A stretch of 64,000 bases of DNA from Solobacterium sp. GTDB taxonomy: Bacteria > Bacillota_I > Bacilli_A > Erysipelotrichales > Erysipelotrichaceae. Where the stretch lies: assembly GCA_017469885.1 (NCBI GenBank), contig JAFUFO010000036.1, positions 1 through 64,000 on the forward strand, in the 5' to 3' direction. The notes below the pieces were generated by a model. It worked only from the letters and a program-made list of their open reading frames with translations, searched no databases and was not told the origin of the DNA. The position numbers were made by a program, and so were the translations under genes. Of the stretch, positions 6,563 to 63,330 are shown one piece after another; position 1 is the stretch's first letter, and each line of letters starts with the position of its first letter.

Positions 6563-7309
6563 CCCTTTCAGGGAATCCACGACGTACGTCGGATGAATAT
6601 CACTTGCGCCAAGATCCTCATAACGGTTCTCGCCAAGTACATATACGGTGGAAACGCCTGCCGCATGTGCGGTGGCAATTTCTGTCTGAAGATTATCACT
6701 TACAAACAGTGCCTGTTCCGGTTCAATGCCAACATAGGTGAGAGATTTTTTTACCATGACCGGACTGGACCAGCCGGAAACAAGCGCTTCTGTACCGGAG
6801 GCATATTCCAGCATCATCGCAATCGACCCCGACCCAAGCTGAGCCTGGTTGCGCTGCCAGAGCACATGGGAATCACTGACAGAGATGATCACGGCACCGT
6901 TCATAACTGCCTGTAATGCCGCATTGTAATCACGGTAGGTCGCATCACGCTGTGTTCCGACAAACAGCCAGTGCGGCCGTTCTGAATCCATAAGAAAACC
7001 ACCCTTCTGAATCAGGCGCTTCATGGATTCTGAACCGATGACCCACGCACGGTTCCGTTCCGGATAGTTGGAACGTATTGCATCGACCGCGGCCATGGTT
7101 GATGTATAAAAGAGATCTTCGGAAAACAGCGGAAAACCGCATTCATACATGCGGTCAGCCATACGGTTTCTGGAATGAAGCGAACGATCACTGAGGATCA
7201 GAAACGGATGCTGATTCTTAGACAGATGCTTGATCAGTTCGATTGCCCCATCTGTCGGCATATCATCTTTTATAAGAACATCGTGAGAAAATAAATAAAT
7301 ATTCTTCAT
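6551..7309 (-). CDS. HAD-superfamily IIA (NagD/AraL-like) protein, probably catalytically altered
   Basis: A 252-residue protein with the NagD-type architecture (HAD core with C2 cap). The first motif, normally DxDG with the Asp nucleophile, reads YLFSHDVLIK: the nucleophile position is Ser and the Gly is absent, while the second Asp is kept. Motif II (ILSDRS), the motif III Lys (PVMVKK) and a weakened motif IV (VSDNLQTEI, normally GDxxxTDI) are recognisable. The overall fold is convincing, but phosphatase activity is doubtful. A TATAAT (7333-7338 read on the minus strand) lies 23 bases upstream of the ATG, and no clear Shine-Dalgarno is visible. It could have become a binding or regulatory protein. 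Confidence 0.8.
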   Translation of the reverse strand: MKNIYLFSHDVLIKDDMPTDGAIELIKHLSKNQHPFLILSDRSLHSRNRMADRMYECGFPLFSEDLFYTSTMAAVDAIRSNYPERNRAWVIGSESMKRLIQKGGFLMDSERPHWLFVGTQRDATYRDYNAALQAVMNGAVIISVSDSHVLWQRNQAQLGSGSIAMMLEYASGTEALVSGWSSPVMVKKSLTYVGIEPEQALFVSDNLQTEIATAHAAGVSTVYVLGENRYEDLGASDIHPTYVVDSLKGLFV

Positions 7310-7364
7310 ACAACCAACTTGTTATGCATTGTATTATATCATTAATGTTCAGGAGTCCAAAAAA

Positions 7365-8249
7365 ATGAAAACTGATAAGAAACGGATCCTAGTACATATA
7401 CTTTCAATCCTGCTGGCTATCAGCCTCTTTGGGCTGGCTTTGTATTTTGATGCATACAACACTGCACCGTCCCGTTTCCAGGTCCGCTATGAGACTCTGG
7501 ATTCAGTCTTCATCCCGTCCCAGATGGATGATGTGACGATCCTGTATTTCTCTGATCTTGACTACGGTACGTATATGGACCGTAAACGCATGGAAAAGCT
7601 GACCGGCATCATCAACGAGCTCAGTCCGGATATCATCCTCTTCGGCGGTGATCTCTTCGATCAGAATGCACGTATCTCAGAACAGGAACGCACAGACGTT
7701 ACGGAACTGCTCTCTTCCATGCATGCTCCGCTCGGAAAATTTGCGGTGCTCGGTGATTTTGACTACCGGACACCGGAACTGCCGGAGATCGTCCAATCGG
7801 TTCTCTTCGACAGTGATTTTGAACTGCTGGTCAACACCAGCGTCATTCTCCGCAACAACGGCAGTGAATCCATTACGCTTACCGGACTGGACAGCGGACT
7901 GTATGGACATCCTGATATCAATGCGGCATTTGCCAATATCGGCCGTGCCGGATACAACATTGTACTCTCCCATACACCGGATCTTGCGGAGGATGTGCCT
8001 TCTGATCTGGCAGATTACATGCTGAGCGGACACAGTCACGGCGGACAGGCTTACTGGGGATTCGGAGCGCTGTATACGCCGCCCCAGGCGGAGATGTTCT
8101 TCCGCGGAAAGCATGACATCAAAGGACTGTTCACTCTTGATATCACCAATGGCGTCGGAACTACAGAACAGGACGTACGGTTCCTTGCCAACGCCGAAGT
8201 TGATCTCTACCGTCTGAAACACCACAGCATGGAAACCGTCGGATCCTGA
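7365..8249 (+). CDS. Membrane-anchored calcineurin-like metallophosphoesterase-fold protein with degenerate motifs
   Basis: A 294-residue protein with an N-terminal transmembrane anchor (about 9-29) followed by an extracytoplasmic YkuE/YaeI-like phosphoesterase fold. Motifs in order: SDLDYG (family SDLHxG, so His replaced by Asp), GGDLFD (intact), LGDFDY (family GNHDY, so both Asn and His missing), SHTPD and GHSHGGQ (intact). Two of the usual metal or catalytic ligands are therefore absent. I choose the ATG at 7365 because AGGAG lies 9 bases upstream. A TTG 36 bases earlier has no site. A perfect hairpin terminator follows. Confidence 0.82.
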   Translation: MKTDKKRILVHILSILLAISLFGLALYFDAYNTAPSRFQVRYETLDSVFIPSQMDDVTILYFSDLDYGTYMDRKRMEKLTGIINELSPDIILFGGDLFDQNARISEQERTDVTELLSSMHAPLGKFAVLGDFDYRTPELPEIVQSVLFDSDFELLVNTSVILRNNGSESITLTGLDSGLYGHPDINAAFANIGRAGYNIVLSHTPDLAEDVPSDLADYMLSGHSHGGQAYWGFGALYTPPQAEMFFRGKHDIKGLFTLDITNGVGTTEQDVRFLANAEVDLYRLKHHSMETVGS

Positions 8250-8257
8250 TCATAAGC

Positions 8258-8284
8258 AAAAAAACCGCCGCGGCGGTTTTTTTT
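8258..8284. terminator. Bidirectional rho-independent terminator
   Basis: A perfect GC-rich palindrome (CCGCCG/CGGCGG) flanked by an A-run on one side and a T-run on the other, between the convergent phosphoesterase gene and the 82-residue ORF. Confidence 0.85.
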
Positions 8285-8308
8285 CATCCGTTATAAATAC
8301 TCATCTGA

Positions 8309-8557
8309 TCACTGCAGCATCCGTGTCAGACGCTTTGCATAACGTGCACGCTGTGAAGGCGCAACGTTTGCAATCATCGAAAGCAGTTCATAGATCTTAA
8401 GCTTTTCGTTGACCGTATAGCTGTCGTCTTTTACCACAGCTGTCGTAATCAGATTCAGACTGTCAAGAAATTCAGATTCTGTCTCGCGCTTTCCGAGTTC
8501 CATGACCTTTTCGAATGCTTCGGCAATGCCGTTGTTATGTTTATGAAACAGGCCCAT
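8309..8557 (-). CDS. Small hypothetical protein (82 aa)
   Basis: An 82-residue soluble protein, mostly helical in appearance, ending in a basic stretch (RARYAKRLTRMLQ). It is preceded by a strong AGGAGG site and starts 21 bases after the thiI stop, so it looks like the last gene of the ezrA-desulfurase-thiI operon. It has no Cys, no metal motif and no transmembrane segment. I do not recognise the family. The strong ribosome-binding site and operon position make it a real gene. Confidence 0.75.
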   Translation of the reverse strand: MGLFHKHNNGIAEAFEKVMELGKRETESEFLDSLNLITTAVVKDDSYTVNEKLKIYELLSMIANVAPSQRARYAKRLTRMLQ

Positions 8558-8577
8558 CGTTCAAACCTCCTGTATCT

Positions 8578-9765
8578 TCAGAGAAATGACTCTCTCTCCT
8601 GCGGATGCACAGTAATTACTTCTGCCGCCTCCGCCGCTTCCGCAATCATCTTATCATACGGGAAACGAGCTTCATAACCCTCAGCCTTCTTTACTGTCGG
8701 CTTGGTGACAGGGTTTTTCGGATCAAAGATCGTGCAGCAGTCTTCATAGGGAAGAATTGATGTCTCATAGGTGCCGATTCGGCGTGCAAGATCAATGATC
8801 TCTACCTTATCCATGCAGATAAGCGGACGAAGCACCGGAATCGATATAACCGAATTGATGCATGCAATACTTTCAAGGGTCTGGCTTGCGACCTGCCCAA
8901 GGCTCTCGCCGGTGCCGATTGCAAGACATCCGGATTCCCTTGCGATCTGTTCCGCAAGACGGACCATCATACGCCGCATCAGTGTGATTGCGTACGGGTC
9001 GCCTGCCGTCTTATAGATCTCCAGCTGCAGTGCGGTGAAGTTCACCATATGCACGCGCATTCTGCCCTGGTTATATTCACTCATCATCGACGCAAGGTCG
9101 AGAACCTTCTGTCTGGCATTTTCACTGGTGTACGGCGGACTGGCAAAATGAACTGCCTCGACATCAAGACCGCGTTTCATCAGTTCATATGCCGCAACCG
9201 GAGAGTCAATGCCTCCCGACAGCATCAGCAGTACTTTCCCGTTGATTCCGGACGGATAGCCGCCCGCCCCGGGAATCTTCTCACTCATGAGATAGGTATC
9301 GCCGGAATGCACTTCCACACGGAGTTCAAGTTCCGGATGATGCACATCCACTTTCATATCCGTGTTCTGAAGAATATATCCCGCAACCGCGCGGTTGATC
9401 CCATCGGAATTCATCGGAAACGTCTTGTCATGCCGGCGGGTAATCATCTTGAATGTCTGCTTTCCGGAATCCTTCGCAATCGCAAGGCACCGTTCTTTTA
9501 TTGCATCAAGATTGGAATCCACCCGTTCTGTAAAGGAGAAGGAAGAAATACCGAATACCTTCTTCAGTTTCTCTTTTACCGCTTCGGCATCTGCACCGTT
9601 AAGCCGGATATAAAACCGGTCATAACTGCGCCGGTACTCCAGTTGTGTAAACTCCCGGAGGATACCGCGGATATTGTTGTCGAGTTTCCGGATAAAATCC
9701 TTCCGGTTCTTTCCCTTCGTTGTAAGTTCTCCGTATCGGATCAATACGGTATCGTAATCAGCCAT
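8578..9765 (-). CDS. thiI: tRNA 4-thiouridine(8) synthase
   Basis: A 395-residue ThiI with an N-terminal ferredoxin-like/THUMP region (about 1-165) and a PP-loop adenylation domain (LMLSGGIDSPVAAYE near 180-194). It adenylates U8 of tRNA and transfers sulfur to give s4U. It lacks the C-terminal rhodanese domain of enterobacterial ThiI, as is usual in Firmicutes, where a dedicated cysteine desulfurase supplies sulfur directly. That desulfurase is encoded immediately upstream with an 8-base overlap, matching the nifZ-thiI pair of Bacillus. Confidence 0.96.
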   Translation of the reverse strand: MADYDTVLIRYGELTTKGKNRKDFIRKLDNNIRGILREFTQLEYRRSYDRFYIRLNGADAEAVKEKLKKVFGISSFSFTERVDSNLDAIKERCLAIAKDSGKQTFKMITRRHDKTFPMNSDGINRAVAGYILQNTDMKVDVHHPELELRVEVHSGDTYLMSEKIPGAGGYPSGINGKVLLMLSGGIDSPVAAYELMKRGLDVEAVHFASPPYTSENARQKVLDLASMMSEYNQGRMRVHMVNFTALQLEIYKTAGDPYAITLMRRMMVRLAEQIARESGCLAIGTGESLGQVASQTLESIACINSVISIPVLRPLICMDKVEIIDLARRIGTYETSILPYEDCCTIFDPKNPVTKPTVKKAEGYEARFPYDKMIAEAAEAAEVITVHPQERESFL

Positions 9766-51189: not shown

Positions 51190-51936
51190 TAACCACCCGT
51201 AAAACGGGTGGTTTGCTCTGAGGCTATAAGCCTCTGAATGCAAGCCAGCGTCTCAAGGCGCTGGCTTTTCCATACTCACGTATGTCGAAGCCACCTTTGT
51301 TATTACAACCGTGGCCGGCCGTAAACGGCCTTATTATCTTTTCCTGTTCGGATTCTCTTTTCTGATCTGCTTGTCTTCCCCGAACGGATCTTCATACTCT
51401 CTCACGCTCAGTTTGTCCTTCGCAATATCATCTTTTTCCTGATCCTGTATGTACTTTCTGACTGTCGCTTCATTCAGTCCGACCGTACTCACATAATATC
51501 CATCTGCCCAAAAGTGTCTGTTGCCAAATTTGTACTTTAAGTTCCCGTGTTTTTCGAAGATCATCATCGACAGCTTTCCCTTCAGATATCCCATGAAACT
51601 GCTTACCGAAATCTTCGGTGGTATCGACACCAGTATGTGCACATGGTCTGGCATCATATGCCCTTCGATTATCTCCACTCCCTTGTATGCACATAGTCTC
51701 TTGATGTACTCTGCGATATCTCTCCGCAGCTGATTGTAAATTATCTTTCTTCTGTACTTTGGAGTGAACACGATATGGTATCTTGTATAATACTTTGTGT
51801 GCCAATGAATCGTACTTCTTGGCCATATTAAACACCTCATCTTTCTATTCTGGTGACTTCGACACTCACCAGCTTAGTCAGATGGGGTGCTTCTTTCTAC
51901 AAGAAGCACCTGCCTTCCACCTGCCTAGCAGGTGGT
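51190..51936 (-). mobile_element. IS200/IS605-type insertion sequence (tnpA only; ends approximate)
   Basis: A Y1-HUH tnpA flanked by strong subterminal hairpins, as expected for this family, which transposes as single-stranded DNA. Right-end side (low coordinates): 51191-51213, 51220-51234, 51242-51267, 51317-51330. Left-end side: 51850-51872, 51886-51910, 51917-51935. No tnpB is present. The hairpin at 51191-51213 may instead be the terminator of the prsA-like pair. The element sits between that pair and the hit gene. Confidence 0.75.
51334..51826 (-). pseudogene. tnpA: IS200-type transposase TnpA, frameshifted near its N-terminus
   Basis: The minus-strand reading frame from ATG 51824-51826 gives the normal start MAKKYDSLAH, with AGGTG upstream. 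The rest (TKYYTRYHIVFTPKYRR...) is in a different frame. The break lies at a CACACA run (51796-51801): one more CA unit would restore MAKKYDSLAHTKYY. Downstream, the HUH motif (PDHVHIL) and the catalytic Tyr region (STVGLNEATVRKYIQDQE) are intact. An in-frame ATG at 51838-51840 could produce an altered N-terminus, so residual expression cannot be excluded. Confidence 0.75.
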
Positions 51937-52479: not shown

Positions 52480-52518
52480 CAAAAAACAATCTGAGCTGTT
52501 ACTCAGATTGTTTTTTTA
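52480..52518. terminator. Bidirectional terminator between hit and gatD
   Basis: A 12-bp perfect stem AAACAATCTGAG/CTCAGATTGTTT with a 6-base loop, with T-runs in both directions. Confidence 0.9.
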
Positions 52519-53242
52519 TTCCCATTCTTCCCAGCATGGTTTCCCGGGCACGGGTTTCAAACGTATCGTCCAGTTCAGAGAGTGTCACAGTGCCGTAATT
52601 GCGCCGCAGTCCACGCATCAGTACGAGATCGGCGATACGCGGATTCTTTGGCAGCAGCGGACCATGCATATAGGTTGCGGCAACCTGATCGTTGACGAAT
52701 CCTTCAAAGGCACTCTGGTATTCATTTCCATGCCCTTTCAGGACCCTGCCGAGCGGTGTAGTCACTCCTCTTGTCTGACCGCCATGGTTTTCAAATCCTA
52801 CCGCATTGAATGTCTCGTGATCCATGGTCACTTCAATGGCAATATTGCCGATGCAGCGATGATCCCGATCAGAAGCTTCCGTATAGTAATCAAAGAAATC
52901 CAGGCATGGAACCGTCTTGCCGTCCTGATCTTTATAATATTTGCCGAACATCTGATAGCCGCCGCAGATCAGAAGAAATGCCGTGCCGCTTTTCATCGCC
53001 TGCTCGATACCAGCACGTCTCGAAAGCAGATCCTCAAAGATCAGACTCTGTTCACGGTCAGCGCCGCCGCCGAGGAAAAAGATATCGTAATCCTCAATCG
53101 TACGGGCTTCGCCGATGCCGCACGTATCGACTGTCACATCAATGCCGCGCTTCTCACAGCGGGTCTTCAGCACCTGGATATTGCCTTTGTCGCCATAGAG
53201 ATCCATCAGGTCGTGATACATCCATAATATGTTCAGTTTCAT
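52499..53242 (-). CDS. gatD: Lipid II isoglutaminyl synthase, glutaminase subunit GatD
   Basis: A 247-residue CobB/CobQ-like class I amidotransferase. The nucleophile Cys is in LLICGGYQMFG (about 94) and the His in TYMHGPLLPKNP (about 190). With MurT it amidates the alpha-carboxyl of D-Glu in lipid II to D-isoglutamine, supplying ammonia from glutamine. ATGA overlap with murT. It is last in the glycolipid-murT-gatD run. Confidence 0.94.
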   Translation of the reverse strand: MKLNILWMYHDLMDLYGDKGNIQVLKTRCEKRGIDVTVDTCGIGEARTIEDYDIFFLGGGADREQSLIFEDLLSRRAGIEQAMKSGTAFLLICGGYQMFGKYYKDQDGKTVPCLDFFDYYTEASDRDHRCIGNIAIEVTMDHETFNAVGFENHGGQTRGVTTPLGRVLKGHGNEYQSAFEGFVNDQVAATYMHGPLLPKNPRIADLVLMRGLRRNYGTVTLSELDDTFETRARETMLGRMGIKKQSE

Positions 53243-54558
53243 TTATGACGGCTCCCTTCCTGTTTTCTCAGAACGGCACGTGTGGAATGAAGCGCCGTAT
53301 AGGTGGAAATGACATGGCTTTCCAGATTCGCCTCATCAAGCCAGCGAATCGCATCCCGGGCATTCTCAATGACCATGACCCGATCTTCCAGACCTTCATA
53401 TTTCAGCCGGAGTGCCATATCATATGGCCGTGTTCCGGAACAGATGATGGTCTTTACCGAGGGATCATTCAGACGTTCAAAATGCGCATCCCAGATCCAC
53501 GATACATCATGTCCATCCTGGTCGTTGTCATTCAGAAAGATACAGATGTTTTTATCGCCGGGCTGCCCAAGAATGAATTTCATGACTTCATTGGCACCGG
53601 TCGGATTCTTGATCAGATTGATCGTGCAGGGCCGGCTCAGCTGGAACACTTCATTCCGTCCCTCCTTGAGCACATAATTCCGGAAGACCGTATCCGCTGC
53701 GGATACGTCTCTTCCCATCACATTCATGAGACAGAGTACAGAGGCGCAGTTATAAACACCATAGATCGAATTTACAAAGGAATGATAGGTCTTCCCCTGT
53801 GCTTCAAAGGATGCGTTGTCAAAGTCCACATTCGTCACCGTAAGATCCGGTTTGATTTCGCCGAATCCGTCATACGGACAGTGAAAGCGGCCGATATGGG
53901 AATACTGATAATAGGAATAACTGAGCGGTCTGCCGCAGCGCGGGCAGAATTTTCCTTCCCCTGCTTCATCGGAAATCGTGCGGGACCGCAGTGTCTCGTT
54001 CACCGAGAAGTAATGGACACGCGCTTTTTCCGCCGCATCGCCAAGACGGAGAACATTCGGATCATCTCCATTCAGAATCAGGTCTCCTTCAAAGTCTTTC
54101 ACCAGTTCGATCATCTTGCGGATAATGGTTTCCATCTCTCCGGCACGGTCGAGCTGATCGCGGAAGAAATTGGTGATCACGAGCGCAGTCGGATGAAGCG
54201 CATGAAACTGCCGGTACAGGGTCAGCTCATCAACTTCCAGAACCACCGCATCACCTATCACATGGAAGCGATCATCACAGTTTGCGGCAAGCGTCGTCGC
54301 AATGCCGACATTGAGATTATCCCCGCGGTGATTATTCACCACCTTCATTCCGGACTGACGCAGTGACTCTGCGATCAGATTGGATGTGGTCGTCTTGCCG
54401 TTGGTTCCGGATACGAGAATGACGTGCTCCGGCATCTGCATCTTTTCGATGAACTTTGGGTCCATCTTAAGCGCCAGTACACCGGGCAGCGAACCGCCGC
54501 GTCCTGCCCCGGCAAGAATGGAATGGATCCGTTTTACAAGTCTGAGACGGATATCCAT
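53239..54558 (-). CDS. murT: Lipid II isoglutaminyl synthase, Mur-ligase subunit MurT
   Basis: A 439-residue Mur-ligase-like protein. ATP motif SGTNGKTTTSNL near residues 48-59, then NHRGDNLNVGIATTL. The Cys4 zinc ribbon inserted in the central domain (CPRCGRPLSYSYYQYSH...CPYDG; last Cys pair partly changed, with CPYD in place of CPxC) is typical in position. The C-terminal DUF1727 domain carries the catalytic Asp in LNDNDQDGHDVSWIWD. It activates lipid II D-Glu for amidation by GatD. Confidence 0.94.
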   Translation of the reverse strand: MDIRLRLVKRIHSILAGAGRGGSLPGVLALKMDPKFIEKMQMPEHVILVSGTNGKTTTSNLIAESLRQSGMKVVNNHRGDNLNVGIATTLAANCDDRFHVIGDAVVLEVDELTLYRQFHALHPTALVITNFFRDQLDRAGEMETIIRKMIELVKDFEGDLILNGDDPNVLRLGDAAEKARVHYFSVNETLRSRTISDEAGEGKFCPRCGRPLSYSYYQYSHIGRFHCPYDGFGEIKPDLTVTNVDFDNASFEAQGKTYHSFVNSIYGVYNCASVLCLMNVMGRDVSAADTVFRNYVLKEGRNEVFQLSRPCTINLIKNPTGANEVMKFILGQPGDKNICIFLNDNDQDGHDVSWIWDAHFERLNDPSVKTIICSGTRPYDMALRLKYEGLEDRVMVIENARDAIRWLDEANLESHVISTYTALHSTRAVLRKQEGSRHK

Positions 54559-54560
54559 GA

Positions 54561-55496
54561 CTATTTCCCTGCCTTATAGAACTGCCGGTTCTCAAATGCG
54601 AACATCTTCGGGGTCCAGTTTCCGGGTTTCACCTGTGACAGTGCCTGGCTCAGGGAATTCATGCGTGCATCCATGTTGTCGATCAGGAACAGCGCTTCCG
54701 CTTCCGGAATGGCCGGAAGCACCGGAGAACCGAATTCATGCTTGCCGTGATGAGAAAGAATCATATGCCTCAGAAGCAGCGTTTCATTTTTATCACTGAG
54801 CCCAAGCTCCTGGGCAGTCTCCACAAGCCATCCGTGGCCGATGGAAATATGACCGGTCAGTTTGCCTTCCAGCGTATATTCATTCGATACAAGACCGCCG
54901 AGTTCAGCGATTTTGCCCATATCATGAACGAGCACGCCGGAGATTAACAGATCACGGTCGAGAACCGGATACTGGGCTGCGATATGTTCCGCAAGATTCG
55001 CCATCCCGACGGTATGTTCCGCAAGGCCTCCGAGATAGTTGTGATGAATCCGGGAAGCGGCCGGATAATCAAAGAATGTCTTTCCGACCTTTTTGTACAT
55101 TGCTTCCACAAGCGTGCGGAGTGTTTCGTTCTGAATGGAACGGACATAGCCGGCAATCTGTGCCTTCAGCTCGCTGACTGCCACCGGGCTTGCCATGACA
55201 AATTCGCTGAGATCAATGTCATTCTGATCAAGATCCCGGATGGAATTGATCCGAAGCTGAAGTGCGTTGTTGTAGTCGAGCACTTCAAACATGAGCTGTT
55301 CCACATGTCCGGGAACTGCGGCCGCAATATCTTCCGGAGAAGCATCCCAGAGTTTTCCGTCAATCGTGCCGGAATCATCCTGCAGAACGAGGCTGAGATA
55401 CGGGGAGCCCTTCTGTGTTACGCCCTTGAGCACATTCTTCACCAGAAGGTTCATCGTATACCGTTCTTTTTCCCGAAATTCCTTTACCTTTGTCAT
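54561..55496 (-). CDS. yhaM: 3'-5' exoribonuclease YhaM
   Basis: A 311-residue nuclease with an N-terminal OB-fold (about 15-95, GSPYLSLVLQDDSGTIDGKLWD) and an HD phosphohydrolase domain (HHNYLGGLAEHT, VHDMGKIAEL, SHHGKHEFGSP). It degrades RNA, and DNA in some species, from the 3' end. Start at 55496 (MTKVKEF) with GGAG 8 bases upstream; it overlaps the fusion gene stop by ATGA. A nuclease in a lipid/wall operon is unusual, but RecX-YhaM adjacency gives a nucleic-acid pair. Confidence 0.93.
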   Translation of the reverse strand: MTKVKEFREKERYTMNLLVKNVLKGVTQKGSPYLSLVLQDDSGTIDGKLWDASPEDIAAAVPGHVEQLMFEVLDYNNALQLRINSIRDLDQNDIDLSEFVMASPVAVSELKAQIAGYVRSIQNETLRTLVEAMYKKVGKTFFDYPAASRIHHNYLGGLAEHTVGMANLAEHIAAQYPVLDRDLLISGVLVHDMGKIAELGGLVSNEYTLEGKLTGHISIGHGWLVETAQELGLSDKNETLLLRHMILSHHGKHEFGSPVLPAIPEAEALFLIDNMDARMNSLSQALSQVKPGNWTPKMFAFENRQFYKAGK

Positions 55497-57487
55497 ACAT
55501 TCCACTCCATTTCATCGAGGATCACATAGATATCCTCCGCATTATATCCCTGTGCACTGCAGTAACGGTACACCGTATTGCGGAGCTTTGTGCCCTCGTA
55601 TTTCTTCTCATACCGCTTTTTGGCCTTTGCGGCGCATTTCCGGAGATTATCAAGTTCCTCTTTGTTGTCTTCACGGAAGTCAAACTCCGCAATCACCGCG
55701 TCTGCCACTTCACTGCTGTATCCCTTCGCAATCAGTCTGGCCTTGAGTTTGTTCTGTTTCATCCGCTGACTGGTATCCGGAAGTGTGCGCGCAGAACGTC
55801 TGGCGAATGCCATCGCATCTTCATATTCTGTATCCGGCTGTTCTTCCAGCATGGAATTGATCATCTCCAGCGGAATGCCTTTTTTCCGAAGTTCCCGGAT
55901 CATCCGCTCCTTGCCGAAGAGCGCCAGTTTCATCCGCGAGATGTTTTCAGCGCAATAGCGCTCATCGTCAATGTATCCCTTGAGTTCAAGCCGTTCAACG
56001 ATCTCATTGACCGTCTCGATATCACAGCTGGTATTGCGCGTCAGCCAGTCATAGATTTCCTTGCGGGTCCTGTCCTTGACCGCAATGCGTCGCATACAGC
56101 TTCGCCATGCACGTACCGCATCCTGTTTGCGGCGGATGCGTTCCACCGTGGATGCGGAAAGACGCATTCCCTTTCGGATTCCCTCGTTGTAGTAATCGTC
56201 CAGGGACATCATCAGACGGATATCTTCCCCGGCCCCATGTTTCATGTTTCCAAGATAGATCTGAACGATATCTTCCTTTACCTGTACGTCTTCCACGACA
56301 AGCATGTGCTCATACAGATCAATTGCACGTTCATATACATGCAATGCCCGTTCATAGAACACCTCGGAACTTAACGGCTGAACCTGTTTCAGCACCTGTT
56401 CTTTCATTTCGGATAGCTTTGTTTCCGGAAGCTGTTCCACTTTCAGAAGAATACGGCTCAGATCTTCCGCATCCTTAAAATAGTATCCCGTCTTCCCGTC
56501 GATCAGAAGTTCTTCCAAAACGACATCCTTACGGGCAAGCAGCGGCAGTCCTGCCGCCATCGCCTCGACAAATGTCATGCCCTGGGTTTCGGACAGACTT
56601 GCGCTCACGAAAAAGTCAGCACTGCGGTAATAGTCCGCAACTTCAGGAGCCGGCTTCGGTCCGGCAAACAGCACATTGGTAATCTGTTCTTTCTCTGCAT
56701 AGGCCTTCAGACGGTCAAGATCCGGTCCGCCTCCGACAATAAGCAGACGCAGGGAACAGCCCTTCTTCTTTGCGGCCGCAAAGCCATCGATCACAATGTC
56801 CAGCGCTTTCTCTTCAGCGATTCTTCCAAGATAGATGGCAAGCCGCTCATCCGGACGGACTCCAAATGCATTGCGGATCTCTGCGGTCCGTTCCGGCAGC
56901 TGTTTCTCCGGGGAAAACTGTTCAAGCTGAAGACCCGTCGGAACGACATGGATCTCTGACGTCACGTGATAGCATTCCAGCAGTTTCTTGGTCTTCTCAC
57001 TGGGCGCGATCACAGCGGCTGAACTGTCCGACATGAACTTGGAAAACCAGCCGACTGCTTTTTTCACCTGGGCATCAAACCGGTCGGAATTCAGCAGGTT
57101 GATGTAATGGGTGTAATCCTCATAGGAGGTATGATAGGTGCTCACCAGCGGAATGTTCAGCTGCTTGGCGCAGAACCGCGCAAAAATACCGACGCCGAAT
57201 TCGGTCTGTACATGAATGACATCGAGATCGAGTGCCCGGATCTCATTCAGTGCATTGATATGAAACGGAGTTGTGACCGCATAGCCGTACAGACGCTTTA
57301 CCGTAACACCGGCAAGCCGAAGCACATCATGGTCCTCATTCCACTTTGCCCATCCTGTACCCGGACGGGTTGCGACAACATAAACATCATGTCCATGTTT
57401 CTTCAATTCGCGGAAAAGAATGTAGGTGGAATTGGCAACGCCGTTGAGATCCGGCGGAAATGTATCTGAAAATAATCCGATTCTCAT
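55493..57487 (-). CDS. Fusion: GT4 diacylglycerol glucosyltransferase-like domain + RecX
   Basis: A 664-residue open frame with two complete proteins. Residues 1-395 form a GT-B family 4 enzyme of the alMGS/LafA/UgtP-like type that glucosylates diacylglycerol (LFSDTFPPDLNGVANST, STYHTSYEDYTHY, VPTGLQLEQFSP, and the E-x7-E pair in SLSETQGMTFVEAM, E300/E308). Residues about 396-664 are a full-length RecX, the RecA modulator, with three-helix repeats (LKGYIDDERYCAENISRMK, GKERMIRELRKKGIP, LIAKGYSSEVADAVI). No stop, no internal start with a good site at the joint. The gene lies between a LafC-like gene and yhaM, with ATGA overlaps on both sides. Confidence 0.9.
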   Translation of the reverse strand: MRIGLFSDTFPPDLNGVANSTYILFRELKKHGHDVYVVATRPGTGWAKWNEDHDVLRLAGVTVKRLYGYAVTTPFHINALNEIRALDLDVIHVQTEFGVGIFARFCAKQLNIPLVSTYHTSYEDYTHYINLLNSDRFDAQVKKAVGWFSKFMSDSSAAVIAPSEKTKKLLECYHVTSEIHVVPTGLQLEQFSPEKQLPERTAEIRNAFGVRPDERLAIYLGRIAEEKALDIVIDGFAAAKKKGCSLRLLIVGGGPDLDRLKAYAEKEQITNVLFAGPKPAPEVADYYRSADFFVSASLSETQGMTFVEAMAAGLPLLARKDVVLEELLIDGKTGYYFKDAEDLSRILLKVEQLPETKLSEMKEQVLKQVQPLSSEVFYERALHVYERAIDLYEHMLVVEDVQVKEDIVQIYLGNMKHGAGEDIRLMMSLDDYYNEGIRKGMRLSASTVERIRRKQDAVRAWRSCMRRIAVKDRTRKEIYDWLTRNTSCDIETVNEIVERLELKGYIDDERYCAENISRMKLALFGKERMIRELRKKGIPLEMINSMLEEQPDTEYEDAMAFARRSARTLPDTSQRMKQNKLKARLIAKGYSSEVADAVIAEFDFREDNKEELDNLRKCAAKAKKRYEKKYEGTKLRNTVYRYCSAQGYNAEDIYVILDEMEWNV

Positions 57488-58551
57488 CTTCTCTCCTTCT
57501 GCGCAAAAGCCTGATCCAGCGCCGCAGCACGGCGGACTTTGGAAATCAGATAAACGAGGCCGCCGGCGATCATATCAAAATAATACGTCATAAACCGCCA
57601 CAACAGCATCGTAGGACGTACATTCACACTGCCGAGTACTACGCGGAACATTACAAGGAAGGTTGCCTCAGTTCCGCCGCTGGCACCAGGGAGCGGGATA
57701 AATGCATTTATCATCGCTACAAATGACGCAAGCGTAAGCATATCAAGAAACATGGCCGGAGTAACCGGAAAATGCAGTGCCTTGGCGGACATATACGGCA
57801 CGGAATAAAACAGCATCAGACGTATGAAGTGTGTCAGACAGACCTTCGCCACCATCGGCTTATGATTGGAAAGCTGATCCACTTCCTTCTGAAAGCGGCT
57901 TAACTGTTCATCCAGTCCGTTCAGCACCTTTTCCCGGTCTTTGATCAGATGAAGCTTCGCGCCGATCTCAATCCCCTTTGTGGTAAGCCAGGTATAGACA
58001 CGCGGAAATTTGACAAACGCCCACAGGGATACGATCACCGCCGCATTTACGGCAAATCCAAGCAGAACGACCACAAGAAACTCACGGAATTTCACATAAA
58101 AATAGCTGAACTTGAGCAGAAGCAGCACAAAGACCGAGGCAACCATGGTGGACTGAAAGAGAATGAAATTCATCCACAGTACACCTGCCGATTCCGATAC
58201 CGGAACGCCCTGTCTTCGGAACAGGAATACCTGGGCAAACTGACCGCCGCTTGAACTCGGTGTGATCTGATTGAAAAAGCCTCCGACAAACGCATTTTCA
58301 ATTCCGTCCGCAAGCGAATACTCTGGACGGGAAAGGTTTGCCTCAAGCTTCAGCGCATAGCCGTTGAGAACACGGAACATCAGCATCGCCGCCATGATTA
58401 AAACAAGCCATAACTTGTCTGCATTCTTCAGCCGGTCAAATACTTCCGTGGGATTATCACGGACCGTAAGATACACGACCAGAAGCGAAAGACCGATGAT
58501 AAGCGCAATATTAAAAACGTAGTTTGAAAACAGACGCTTCAGTTTGTTCAT
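57484..58551 (-). CDS. Lysylphosphatidylglycerol synthase transmembrane-domain (LafC/flippase-like) protein
   Basis: A 355-residue polytopic membrane protein of the LPG_synthase_TM/UPF0104 family, with about eight hydrophobic helices. The conserved GGFFNQITPSSSGGQFAQVF and PLPGASGGTEATFLV motifs mark the family's flippase-like core. It lacks the cytosolic aminoacyl-transferase domain of MprF. Homologous genes accompany glycolipid and lipoteichoic-acid anchor glycosyltransferases (LafC in Listeria). It overlaps the fusion gene by 4 bases. Likely role: handling or flipping glycolipid. Confidence 0.85.
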   Translation of the reverse strand: MNKLKRLFSNYVFNIALIIGLSLLVVYLTVRDNPTEVFDRLKNADKLWLVLIMAAMLMFRVLNGYALKLEANLSRPEYSLADGIENAFVGGFFNQITPSSSGGQFAQVFLFRRQGVPVSESAGVLWMNFILFQSTMVASVFVLLLLKFSYFYVKFREFLVVVLLGFAVNAAVIVSLWAFVKFPRVYTWLTTKGIEIGAKLHLIKDREKVLNGLDEQLSRFQKEVDQLSNHKPMVAKVCLTHFIRLMLFYSVPYMSAKALHFPVTPAMFLDMLTLASFVAMINAFIPLPGASGGTEATFLVMFRVVLGSVNVRPTMLLWRFMTYYFDMIAGGLVYLISKVRRAAALDQAFAQKERR

Positions 58552-58584: not shown

Positions 58585-59622
58585 TCAACACGACGCAAGC
58601 TGCTCGTCACTTACAGTTTCATCTTTCAGAACCGCCTCATAAACGCATTTCAGCTGCCGTCCGATCCGTTCGATGGAACGCGCTTCCGCCACGGCGTATC
58701 CCGCGTCTGCGGTGGATGGAATCCGGTGTTCTGCACAGTCTGAAATAAGCCTGACAAAGGAATCGTTATCCGTGCCTTTATAGCAGTTCACACCGTCAAT
58801 CAGCCATGGATCAAATGCGCCGATATCACGGACGATTACCTGCTGGCGGGAAGCCAGTGCCTCAAGAACAACGATTCCTTCTGTCTCTTCGTAAGACGGG
58901 AAAAAGAAGGCTGCCGCATCCTGAAATGCGCCCTGAATAATCGGGCCTTTTACATAGCCTGGAAACAGACAGTTATCCGGATGATGCTCGATCACTTCGT
59001 TGATCTTGTGCGGTACCGCCATCGGTGAGATTTCACCGAACCAGATGAACTGATAGTCCGGCATCCGCTCCGCCACCTCGACGAAATCAAGAATTCCCTT
59101 CCGCACAAACGGGAGACCAACCCCCAGAATGACCTTTTTTCCATCCTGGAGCCGGAAGTAATTGCGGAACGCTTTCACTTTCTCCGCATCCGGCGCAAAC
59201 AGCGACAGATCGATGCCGTTGGAGATCGCATAAATGGGACGTTCAATCCCGTAACCATGAATCAGTCTGCGGGAATACGGCGTCGGTGTGATGATCGCAT
59301 CTCCTTTCGAATACAGTGAAATCAGCCCGTGTTTTACCAGCGGCGAAAGAAGATTGGAAAAAATAAAACTGTTCCGGAAATCTTCTTCCGTACTGTGTGC
59401 ATGATAGATTACTTTTTTGCCGAGCTTGCGGGCGTGGGCAATGATGGAATCACTGTTGATTCCGCAGGTATTGATATGCAGAATATCATAGTCTTCATCC
59501 CACGGATCTGTCGTATATTCAATGCCCTGCGAAGTCAGTGCCGCTTTCTGATGTTCAAATGCCCTTCCGACACCCGAAGTCTGAATCAGGCTCTCGCTTT
59601 CAAAATATAACAGTATTTTCAT
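58585..59622 (-). CDS. CpoA/LafB-like family 4 glycosyltransferase (second sugar of glycolipid)
   Basis: A 345-residue GT-B enzyme. The start KILLYFESESLIQTSGVGRAFEHQ is very like streptococcal CpoA, which adds the second sugar to monoglucosyl-diacylglycerol. Conserved parts include HINTCGINS, YHAHSTEEDFRNSF, ISNGIDLSLFAPD and YEETEGIVVLEALAS. Start at 59622; no good Shine-Dalgarno, and an in-frame start at 59679 adds only a basic extension. It is probably the first gene of the operon with the LafC-like gene and the GT4-RecX fusion. Confidence 0.87.
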   Translation of the reverse strand: MKILLYFESESLIQTSGVGRAFEHQKAALTSQGIEYTTDPWDEDYDILHINTCGINSDSIIAHARKLGKKVIYHAHSTEEDFRNSFIFSNLLSPLVKHGLISLYSKGDAIITPTPYSRRLIHGYGIERPIYAISNGIDLSLFAPDAEKVKAFRNYFRLQDGKKVILGVGLPFVRKGILDFVEVAERMPDYQFIWFGEISPMAVPHKINEVIEHHPDNCLFPGYVKGPIIQGAFQDAAAFFFPSYEETEGIVVLEALASRQQVIVRDIGAFDPWLIDGVNCYKGTDNDSFVRLISDCAEHRIPSTADAGYAVAEARSIERIGRQLKCVYEAVLKDETVSDEQLASC

Positions 59623-59724
59623 ATGCAGTCTATGCGGCAGACAATGGATTCGCCGCAGTTCTATTCTACCGCGTTTCAATCTGTTTTGACTTCTTTACAG
59701 AGGCATGGAATCATCGAAATTCTA

Positions 59725-59754
59725 CAAAAAAACTCTCCCCGGTTACGGGGAGAG
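59725..59754 (-). terminator. Terminator of nifJ
   Basis: A 9-bp stem CTCTCCCCG/CGGGGAGAG with a 4-base loop. The T7 run is on the minus strand. Confidence 0.92.
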
Positions 59755-59781
59755 CTTTCTGCTTTGGTTAACCTGACTGAC

Positions 59782-62700
59782 TCAGCCTTCCTGAATCTTA
59801 GCCTTGTTAATGAGCTTGGTGTAGCGTGTCTTCGCATCAGACAGTGTCTTAGCGAAAGCAGCTTCCGCAGCTTCCTGACCCTTGAGCTTCGGCAGGTTGA
59901 AGTAACGAGCCTCGTTCATGAGGAAGTCATGGAACTTATCCCAGTTCGGCTCCTTGGAGTCGATCTGGAGCGGTTTCTCAAGACGCGGGTCATAACGGTA
60001 CAGTGTGACGTAGCCGCATTCAACAGCTGCCTTCTGTACGAGCGGTGCCTTGATGAGGCCGCCCTTGATACCCTGCTCAGCGCACGGGCAGTATGCGATG
60101 ACGATGGAAGGTCCGTCGTAGCTTTCCGCTTCCTTCAGAGCCTTGATTGTCTGCATCTGGTTTGCGCCCATGGATACGGATGCGACATAGCAGTGACCGT
60201 ATTCCATAACGATCTGACCGAGATCCTTCTTGGCGAGTGCCTTACCGCCTGCGGCGAACTTCGCGATGGAAGCAGCCTGCGAGGACTTGGAGGACTGTCC
60301 GCCGGTGTTGGAATAAACTTCGGTATCGAGAACGAGAACGTTGACATTCAGGTTGTTAGCCATGACATGATCAAGTCCGCCGTAGCCGATATCATAAGCC
60401 CAGCCGTCGCCGCCGACGATCCATACGGACTTGCCGACGAGGTCGCGCTCCATCTCGAGAAGGACTTTGACTTCCTCGACCTTGGAATCCTTGAGATCCT
60501 TGACGAGTTTGTCCTTGATTGCACGCTGTGCATCACGGTCATCCTTCGCAGCGATGTAAGCTTCGAAGTCTGCCTTGAGTTCCGGTTCAACCTTGTCCAT
60601 GTTGTCTTCCATGGTCTTGAGGATCTTGGAAGCCTTGAAGGACTGAGCGATTGCCATACCGAAGCCATACTCAGCGTTGTCTTCGAACAGGGAGTTCGCC
60701 CATGCGACACCATTGTTGTCCTTGTCGGTAACGAACGGTGTGGACGGTGTGGACGAGCAGTAGATCATGGTGCATCCGGTAGCGTTGGCAACGAGCATGT
60801 CCTTACCGAACAGCTGCGATGTCAGACGGTAGTACGGAGCTTCTCCGCATCCCGGGCAGCATCCGGATACTTCGAAGTACGGCATCATCAGAGATACGCC
60901 AGCTTCGGTATTCGGGTTGCCGTACTGCGGCTTGTACTCAGTTTCCTTGTACAGGTAATCAGCGACCTTGTCCTGGCTGAGCTGAGTGTTGACTTCCTGA
61001 GCTGTGAGAGCCTTTGCCGGGCAGACTGTGATACATACGCCGCAGCCTACGCAGTTCATCGGGGACAGCTGGATGCGGTACTTGAGACCTGCTTCCTTAG
61101 CGCCCTTGTATGCAGGAGTCGGATCCTTGACGGACCATTCAGCACCTTCCTTGGCAGCGATTGCGGAAGCGTTTGCCTCCTCTTCCGGTGTCAGAAGGAA
61201 CGGACGGATGGTTGCGTGCGGGCACGCGAATGCGCACTTGCCGCACTCGACACACTTCGCGGAATCCCATGCAGGAACCTGCGCAGCGATGTTTCTCTTT
61301 TCACGGAATGCAACATTCTCAGGAATGGATCCATCGAGAACGCCGTACTTCATGAAGCTGGAAACCGGCATGTCATAACCTTCGAGAGCGTTGATTCTCT
61401 GGAGGTTGTTGTCAAAGTATTCATCACCGGTCTTTGTGATGAGGCTCTTGTCATAAGTGAGGTCAGCCCACTCCGGCTTGACAGCTACTTCAACAAGACC
61501 TGTGGAACCTGCGTCGATCGCAGCGATGTTCGCATTGACGACATCCTCACCCTTACGAGCGTAAGTGTGACGTGCAGAATCCTTCATGAGTTCGAGGGAC
61601 TTCTCGAACGGCATGATCTGCGGGTTCAGCTTGAAGAATGCGGACTGCAGGATCGTGTTGGTATGACGGCCCATGTGGCATTCCATCGCAAGCTTGTTCG
61701 CATTGATGATGTAGAACTTCGCGTTCTTCTTCGCAAGTCCTGCCAGCATCCGGTTCGGCAGATGGTTTTCGATTTCCTCAGCCGGGAATGTGGTGTTCAG
61801 AAGGAATGTTCCGCCTTCCTTCAGGTTGCGGACCATATCGAACTTGAAGCAGTAGCTCTCGAGCGAGCAGGAGATGAAGTCTGCCTTGTCGATATAGTAC
61901 GGGCTGTGGATCGGGCTCTTTCCGAAACGCAGATGGCTGCGGGTTACGCCGCCGGCCTTCTTGGAGTCGTATGCGAAGTAAGCCTGGGAATAGAGATCGG
62001 TGTTGTTACCGATGATCTTAACTGTGCTCTTGTTCGCACCGACGGTACCGTCGGAACCGAGACCATAGAACAGGCAGCTTGTGTAGTCAGCGTCAACAGT
62101 GATGTCAACCGGTGCAAGGGACAGGTGTGTAACATCATCATCGATACCGATGGTGAACTCTTCTTTCGGATCATCCTTCTTGAGTTCTTCGTAAACTGCA
62201 TTGATGTGAGACGGGTTGGTATCCTTGGAGGACAGACCGTAACGGCCGCCAATGATTGTGAGATCCTTGTGCTTGCGGAGTGCATAGCATACATCAAGGA
62301 ACAGCGGTTCACGAGAGCCCTGCTCTTTTGCACGGTCAAGTACAGCAATCTTCTTGACGCTTGCCGGAAGAACAGCTTCGAGATACTTCTCGGAGAACGG
62401 ACGGTACAGATAAACCTTGATGAGACCGACCTTTTCGCCGCGTGCTACGAGTGTGTTGATTGTCTCTGTGATAGTGTCTGTGACAGAACCCATTGCGATG
62501 ATGATGCGCTCTGCATCCGGTGCGCCTACATAGGTGAACGGTGCATAGTTTCTTCCGGTGTGATCGGAGATCGCCTTGAAGTACTTGGCAGCGATATCAG
62601 GAACTGCAGCGAAGTGCTCGTTCTGTGCTTCCGCAGCCTGGAAGTAGATATCGTCGTTCTGGGAACCGCCGCGAGTGATTGCATTTCCGTGCGGGTTGAG

Positions 62701-63330
62701 TGCTCTTGCGCGGAATGCTTCAACCTTCTCCATCGGGAGCAGGCTCTTGAGGAAGTCATAATCCATGACCTCGATCTTGTCGATTTCATGAGATGTACGG
62801 AAACCGTCGAAGAAGTGCATGACAGGAACAGAACCGTCAATCGCGATCAGGTGTGCAGCACCTGCGAGATCCATACAGTCCTGAACGCTGTGAGAGCACA
62901 TCATGACGATACCGGTCTGACGGCACGCGTAAACATCCTGGTGATCACCGAAGATCGAAAGTGTGTGAGTTGCAAGTGATCTTGCCGCAACATGTACAAC
63001 GCCCGGGAGCAGTTCGCCCTTGAACTTGTACAGGTTCGGGATCATCAGAAGAAGGCCCTGGGAAGCGGTGAATGTAGCTGCGAGAGCTCCGCCCTGCAGT
63101 GCGCCGTGAACAGCACCTGCAGCGCCGCCTTCTGCCTGCATTTCAACGACCTTGACTTTGTCGCCGAATACGTTGGTACGGCCGGCTGTTGCCCAGTCGT
63201 CAACGTTCTCTGCCATCGGGGATGACGGAGTGATCGGATAGATGCCGGCTACTTCGGTAAACGCATATGCTGAATGCGCTGTAGCGGTATTTCCATCCAT
63301 TGCTTGGAAAACCTTTTTTTCTTGACTCAT
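59782..63330 (-). CDS. nifJ: Pyruvate:ferredoxin (flavodoxin) oxidoreductase
   Basis: A 1182-residue homodimer-type PFOR that oxidises pyruvate to acetyl-CoA and CO2, reducing ferredoxin or flavodoxin. Domains in order: the N-terminal pyrimidine-binding domain (AYAFTEVAGIYPITPSSPM), domains II-III, and an inserted 8Fe ferredoxin domain (CVECGKCAFACPH near 690, CVGCGVCITVCP near 745). The C-terminal TPP domain has GDGWAYDIGYGG and a VSGCCPGCGEAPY proximal cluster ligand set. AGGAGG precedes the ATG. The promoter carries a cre-like site. Oxygen-sensitive enzyme, indicating an anaerobe. Confidence 0.97.
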   Translation of the reverse strand: MSQEKKVFQAMDGNTATAHSAYAFTEVAGIYPITPSSPMAENVDDWATAGRTNVFGDKVKVVEMQAEGGAAGAVHGALQGGALAATFTASQGLLLMIPNLYKFKGELLPGVVHVAARSLATHTLSIFGDHQDVYACRQTGIVMMCSHSVQDCMDLAGAAHLIAIDGSVPVMHFFDGFRTSHEIDKIEVMDYDFLKSLLPMEKVEAFRARALNPHGNAITRGGSQNDDIYFQAAEAQNEHFAAVPDIAAKYFKAISDHTGRNYAPFTYVGAPDAERIIIAMGSVTDTITETINTLVARGEKVGLIKVYLYRPFSEKYLEAVLPASVKKIAVLDRAKEQGSREPLFLDVCYALRKHKDLTIIGGRYGLSSKDTNPSHINAVYEELKKDDPKEEFTIGIDDDVTHLSLAPVDITVDADYTSCLFYGLGSDGTVGANKSTVKIIGNNTDLYSQAYFAYDSKKAGGVTRSHLRFGKSPIHSPYYIDKADFISCSLESYCFKFDMVRNLKEGGTFLLNTTFPAEEIENHLPNRMLAGLAKKNAKFYIINANKLAMECHMGRHTNTILQSAFFKLNPQIMPFEKSLELMKDSARHTYARKGEDVVNANIAAIDAGSTGLVEVAVKPEWADLTYDKSLITKTGDEYFDNNLQRINALEGYDMPVSSFMKYGVLDGSIPENVAFREKRNIAAQVPAWDSAKCVECGKCAFACPHATIRPFLLTPEEEANASAIAAKEGAEWSVKDPTPAYKGAKEAGLKYRIQLSPMNCVGCGVCITVCPAKALTAQEVNTQLSQDKVADYLYKETEYKPQYGNPNTEAGVSLMMPYFEVSGCCPGCGEAPYYRLTSQLFGKDMLVANATGCTMIYCSSTPSTPFVTDKDNNGVAWANSLFEDNAEYGFGMAIAQSFKASKILKTMEDNMDKVEPELKADFEAYIAAKDDRDAQRAIKDKLVKDLKDSKVEEVKVLLEMERDLVGKSVWIVGGDGWAYDIGYGGLDHVMANNLNVNVLVLDTEVYSNTGGQSSKSSQAASIAKFAAGGKALAKKDLGQIVMEYGHCYVASVSMGANQMQTIKALKEAESYDGPSIVIAYCPCAEQGIKGGLIKAPLVQKAAVECGYVTLYRYDPRLEKPLQIDSKEPNWDKFHDFLMNEARYFNLPKLKGQEAAEAAFAKTLSDAKTRYTKLINKAKIQEG

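Follow-up and report, generated by a model that had tools for sequence, protein, structure and literature searches.

What could it mean for a cell when the regulator of its DNA-repair filament shares one open reading frame with an enzyme of membrane-lipid synthesis? RecX in other bacteria trims the RecA DNA-repair filament, and the GT4 enzymes known as alpha-monoglucosyldiacylglycerol synthases include Mgs of Acholeplasma, BgsB of Enterococcus and LafA of Listeria. In the 64,000-nucleotide stretch of Solobacterium DNA analysed here (the window), relatives of both are joined in a single gene, which we call mgs::recX. How did the two come to share a frame, and does it matter that they do?

A glycosyltransferase and a RecX in one open frame

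The preliminary description of the locus had read this gene as a complete GT4 glycolipid glucosyltransferase with an E-x7-E motif, followed by a complete RecX with no stop between them, and domain searches bear this out (Table 1). The frame contains zero internal stops over its 664 codons. In the N-terminal half, Glyco_transf_4 (residues 14-188) and Glycos_transf_1 (residues 201-356), the expected pair, both score far above their cut-offs, and the best NCBIfam model over residues 1-389 is the alpha-monoglucosyl-DAG synthase NF049988; its 244.5 bits are under the 400-bit equivalog cut-off of that model, and this half is therefore filed as Mgs-like rather than as a proven Mgs. E300 and E308, the catalytic pair of the E-x7-E motif, are unchanged in an alignment of 18 orthologues. 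In the C-terminal half, RecX_HTH1 (38.9 bits) and RecX_HTH3 (39.5 bits) are both over the Pfam cut-off of 26, with RecX_HTH2 correctly positioned between them but under it (20.1 bits); the best NCBIfam model, RecX PRK14135, spans residues 434-660 with 122 bits against an equivalog cut-off of 240. Solved RecX structures are also matched: 3e3v with an E-value of 1.4e-12 over residues 442-608, and 3d5l with 1.4e-6.

An AlphaFold2 model of the fused protein (the window and three related loci) reached a mean pLDDT of 49 and a pTM of 0.35, for which reason it was dropped from fold search; the order of secondary structure in this low-confidence model, a GT-B part, then strands, then helices, would be compatible with the two-domain layout. 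Among named records, the closest matches are to Solobacterium MAGs recovered from the gut of reindeer, sheep and cattle (70-97% identity; Erysipelotrichaceae, Erysipelotrichales). A search for a stand-alone recX, which the preliminary description had proposed, detected no second copy with the RecX_HTH2 profile in the 2.66-Mb assembly (96% complete, 49 contigs), in which the single match is the fused gene itself.

Table 1. Features of the mgs::recX locus (window coordinates) and the unfused gene pair of another order.
Feature	Position	Strand	Basis
gatD-like partner of murT (presumed)	52499..53242	(-)	ORF adjoining murT, 4-nt overlap
murT, lipid II isoglutaminyl synthase subunit	53239..54558	(-)	MurT_C PF08353
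yhaM, 3'-5' exoribonuclease-like	54561..55496	(-)	NF010007 329 bits (cut-off 460) and HD domain
Fused gene stop / yhaM start, ATGA overlap	55493..55496	(-)	sequence
Fused gene mgs::recX, 664 aa	55493..57487	(-)	ORF, domain searches, open frame conserved in two families
RecX half, residues 396-664: N-terminal strand region and three three-helix domains	55496..56302	(-)	RecX_HTH1/2/3, PDB 3e3v
Joint, residues 385-403, YERAIDLYEHMLVVEDVQV, constant length	56279..56335	(-)	19 residues in 54/55 fused proteins
GT4 half, residues 1-392, alpha-monoglucosyl-diacylglycerol-synthase-like	56312..57487	(-)	Pfam and NF049988
E300-x7-E308 motif of GT4 half	56564..56590	(-)	invariant in 18 orthologues
Flippase-like stop / fused gene start, ATGA overlap	57484..57487	(-)	sequence
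Upstream LPG_synthase_TM / flippase-like membrane protein	57484..58551	(-)	PF03706 E 7e-36; TIGR00374 above cut-off
IagA/BgsA-type glycosyltransferase, LTA glycolipid anchor	58585..59622	(-)	NF053513 483 bits, cut-off 460
Overlapping mgs-recX pair, several families of another order	L086-L088, L146-L165		recX start 20 nt inside mgs end

Operon context

The genes of the window run in the order IagA/BgsA-type glycosyltransferase, LPG_synthase_TM flippase-like protein, mgs::recX, yhaM, murT and a last frame which we take to be gatD-like from its position beside murT. Overlaps of 4 nt (ATGA) tie the fused gene to both of its neighbours; the IagA/BgsA-type gene, two genes upstream, is a pathway neighbour, and the gene downstream is yhaM, as had been described. 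The locus looks like an LTA-glycolipid-anchor operon that continues into RNA and lipid II genes.

Elsewhere in the window, an IS200-like Y1 transposase ORF of 168 aa (51334-51840 (-), PF01797 E 4e-39) lies close to a HIT gene and PrsA-like genes. An open frame of 1118 aa (59623-62979 (+)) runs antisense to a pyruvate:ferredoxin oxidoreductase-like gene (59782-63330 (-)) and is probably an effect of codon usage rather than a gene.

Distribution of the fusion

When relatives were searched for the same architecture, as the preliminary description had suggested, the whole protein gave a full-length, single-frame match of ~660 aa in at least 145 of 196 Erysipelotrichaceae genomes, a lower bound counted from the matches listed. 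A second family of the order has the full fusion in 18 of the 20 genomes tested, and in one more it is interrupted by a contig end. Well over 150 genomes, each assembled separately, thus share the in-frame joint, and its presence in one open frame in two families likewise speaks against an error of assembly, which can be excluded. Nearly all of the 196 family genomes carry the RecX half once. Outside the order, 296 genomes sampled from the class and 295 from the phylum gave no full-length fusion among the matches listed, and the RecX ORFs listed there are about 150-345 aa long. The fusion is a trait of the order, not of one gene, and is the sole detected RecX of nearly all of this order of gut bacteria; its joint is old and conserved.

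Some family genomes are without a detectable RecX, with the glycosyltransferase present or absent (G006, G016, G034, G056, G157, G184). Two second-family genomes have an extra stand-alone Mgs-like glycosyltransferase beside the fused one (G200:C89:57440-58582 and G205:C130:31968-33131).

Overlapping mgs and recX genes in another order

Families f8, f19, f26 and f27, which belong to another order of the class, have mgs and recX as separate genes on the same strand, adjacent in most of the genomes that possess both; at four loci the order flippase-like gene, glycosyltransferase, recX, yhaM is seen as separate genes. The usual recX start here is a GTG in the +1 frame, exactly 20 nt ahead of the mgs stop, and a GAGGT Shine-Dalgarno sequence lies within the Glu-Val codons of the mgs C-terminus, EVYxRAIRKKW. 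At this embedded site, among the genes that have the motif, the Glu codon is GAG in 20/20 (against 4.4 predicted by the codon usage of each gene) and the Arg codon is CGT in 20/20 (4.9 predicted), in a test that counts related genomes as independent and whose 20 genes include a near-identical trio (L148-L150). Given this excess, the ribosome-binding site and the recX start embedded in mgs appear to be under codon selection, as translational coupling of the pair would predict. With such an overlap, a short indel would be enough to bring both genes into one frame.

Family f8 also has a different GT4 protein of 650 aa (L177 2147-4099 (-); L178 1992-3944 (-)), whose ~260 extra N-terminal residues weakly resemble an alpha/beta hydrolase, making it another fusion of an Mgs-like glycosyltransferase.

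Origin, splitting and loss

The glycosyltransferase and RecX trees are unrooted by themselves, and we infer that the change went from two genes to one. In the glycosyltransferase tree, the other order lies on one side of a 100/99 branch and every fused protein on the opposite side. The reverse course, an ancestral fusion undone in the other order, is less likely, since it would require the selected start site there to have evolved secondarily. Counted from a conserved VY to the first strand of RecX, the joint measures 19 residues in 54 of the 55 fused proteins, a length common to both families that argues for one fusion event; together with the glycosyltransferase tree, it makes independent fusions in each family a disfavoured account. 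Against a single origin, the free RecX tree, the weaker of the two, groups the other order with the window's family and keeps the two fused families apart; this grouping is not significant, and one RecX clade for the order is not rejected by the topology test (p-AU 0.445). Probably, then, a small indel joined the translationally coupled mgs and recX once.

The fused gene was not the end of the matter. Separate, adjacent mgs and recX ORFs are found at L109-L111, L119 and L122; in the glycosyltransferase tree these split members fall inside the fused group, well-supported branches force at least three changes, and at least three lineages have re-split the fused gene. Other loci have kept recX-yhaM, and the glycosyltransferase is gone (L106, L108, L114-L118, L120, L121, L125); in two, a degraded glycosyltransferase N-terminus remains in frame with an intact RecX (L107, 385 aa, 7264-8418 (-); L124, 457 aa, 7299-8669 (-)); at L144 the glycosyltransferase stands alone and RecX is absent. 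Since lineages with only the one or only the other exist, each half can do without its partner. As judged from substitution ratios, purifying selection is acting on both halves: dN/dS is low in each, mostly 0.01-0.2, with many dS values saturated and the ratios therefore rough.

What the fusion may do

The reading that we favour, with a probability of roughly 0.6, is that of a two-domain protein with separate jobs and a single origin near the base of the order, in which the fusion mainly fixes production at 1:1. The glycosyltransferase half would work at the inner membrane face on the first step towards the LTA-anchor glycolipid, from diacylglycerol to monoglucosyl-diacylglycerol, carrying at its C-terminus the sole detected RecX, which would trim RecA filaments; both activities are predicted from homology. 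Near the base of the order, a small indel would have merged an mgs and a recX that already belonged to one operon, overlapped and were coupled, and the main effect would have been to lock the production of both domains at 1:1, the domains themselves probably being independently active. The observed architecture, its conservation, the overlapping unfused relatives and the repeated splitting and loss are what this reading draws on. Three options had been raised in the preliminary description: that the fusion couples DNA-damage control to the membrane, that it places RecX there, or that it just fixes a co-expressed pair. The last is the best supported, by the overlapping, coupled relatives and by halves that are lost or split independently; the two membrane options keep a lesser standing, set out below. 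Besides the free RecX tree, two observations sit uneasily with the favoured reading: independent domains on a string have no need of a constant joint length, and the overlapping pair already gave co-production, if that alone mattered.

The joint is in fact the best hint that the arrangement of the domains matters, its constant length suggesting that they are held in a fixed arrangement. Functional coupling would take several forms: the glycosyltransferase half could anchor RecX at the inner membrane, RecA turnover could be membrane-tied or lipid-responsive, or engagement of RecA or DNA could alter glycolipid synthesis. Most of the order has retained the fusion although splitting is possible, the RecA storage structures and bundles of E. 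coli touch anionic phospholipids (PMC6363387), and E. faecalis BgsB, a relative of the glycosyltransferase half, resembles the Acholeplasma membrane lipid enzyme (PMC3083329). By analogy with such characterised relatives the glycosyltransferase half may be membrane-bound, which tethering needs, and a membrane-tethered RecX is then plausible. However, RecX of B. subtilis is dispersed and also gathers in nucleoid foci together with RecA threads (PMC3527212), so that a tethered RecX, while possible, would depart from that nucleoid mode; and some lineages split the protein, or lose the glycosyltransferase and keep RecX. On balance we regard functional coupling as doubtful. In its most far-reaching form, a whole order would disassemble its RecA filaments by means of a RecX permanently tethered to a membrane glycolipid synthase in a fixed geometry, with the shut-off of recombination and the SOS response tied to the membrane; this we think unlikely. 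If the fused protein does sit at the membrane, RecA control in these bacteria would be unlike the textbook account; otherwise, a membrane enzyme would be tolerated elsewhere in the cell.

Could the fused frame be incidental, with two proteins arising from an internal start or from cleavage at the joint? Unfused relatives do start recX inside mgs, and codon 395 of the window's gene is an ATG; but the methionine at this codon is unconserved, the length of the joint is constant, and across 55 fused genes a Shine-Dalgarno sequence plus start is no commoner in the joint than elsewhere (5/94 versus 67/1538). The efficient internal start that the preliminary description had seen as one danger to its interpretation thus leaves no such trace, and since there is no signal for a separate RecX, the product is taken as one protein of ~75 kDa. 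We infer that RecX is not made separately, and rate the production of two proteins as very unlikely.

Least probable of all is that the RecX half has lost its action on RecA and is now a tail that supports or regulates the glycosyltransferase: this half does fall under the curated cut-offs of the RecX_HTH2 and RecX equivalog models and diverges faster than its partner (mean identity 0.32 versus 0.48), but the free-standing RecX of the other order has a similarly low score (145 bits against the cut-off of 240). At matched glycosyltransferase distance the divergence of that RecX is at least as great (identity 0.27, versus 0.31 for fused RecX), so that the fused RecX half bears no sign of decay; moreover, it stays intact where the glycosyltransferase is lost, as a tail of that enzyme would not, and the same genome encodes one RecA (461 bits).

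Comparison with known systems

The preliminary description knew of no precedent for a RecX on a membrane-lipid enzyme, and we too found nothing relevant to an mgs::recX fusion in the open-access literature. Such sequences are very likely already in protein databases under the name of one half or the other. Both domains are known; it is their fused architecture that is widespread and undescribed in that literature.

The glycosyltransferase half is closest to Mgs, BgsB and LafA, with a full-length match over residues 1-389 and the E-x7-E motif kept; the known members stop at about 390-400 aa, without RecX, whereas the fused protein continues and scores below their equivalog cut-off. The neighbourhoods are also alike: BgsB of E. 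faecalis, the counterpart of this half, adjoins BgsA and is required for all glycolipids, and as bgsB lies beside bgsA in Enterococcus, so the fused gene lies near an IagA/BgsA-type second enzyme (PMC3083329). The RecX half resembles the RecX of Firmicutes (B. subtilis YfhG, 264 aa; PDB 3e3v) in its length of about 269 aa and its three three-helix domains; the B. subtilis protein is free-standing and nucleoid-associated (PMC3527212), whereas here RecX is the C-terminal half of a glycosyltransferase. Also close to the fused locus is the overlapping mgs-recX pair of the other order, which has the same operon order and homologous proteins, with recX directly after mgs, but in two frames that overlap by ~20 nt and with the Shine-Dalgarno sequence inside mgs, where mgs::recX has one frame. 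The unfused relatives also illustrate clearly how two overlapping, translationally coupled genes can merge into one protein and later separate.
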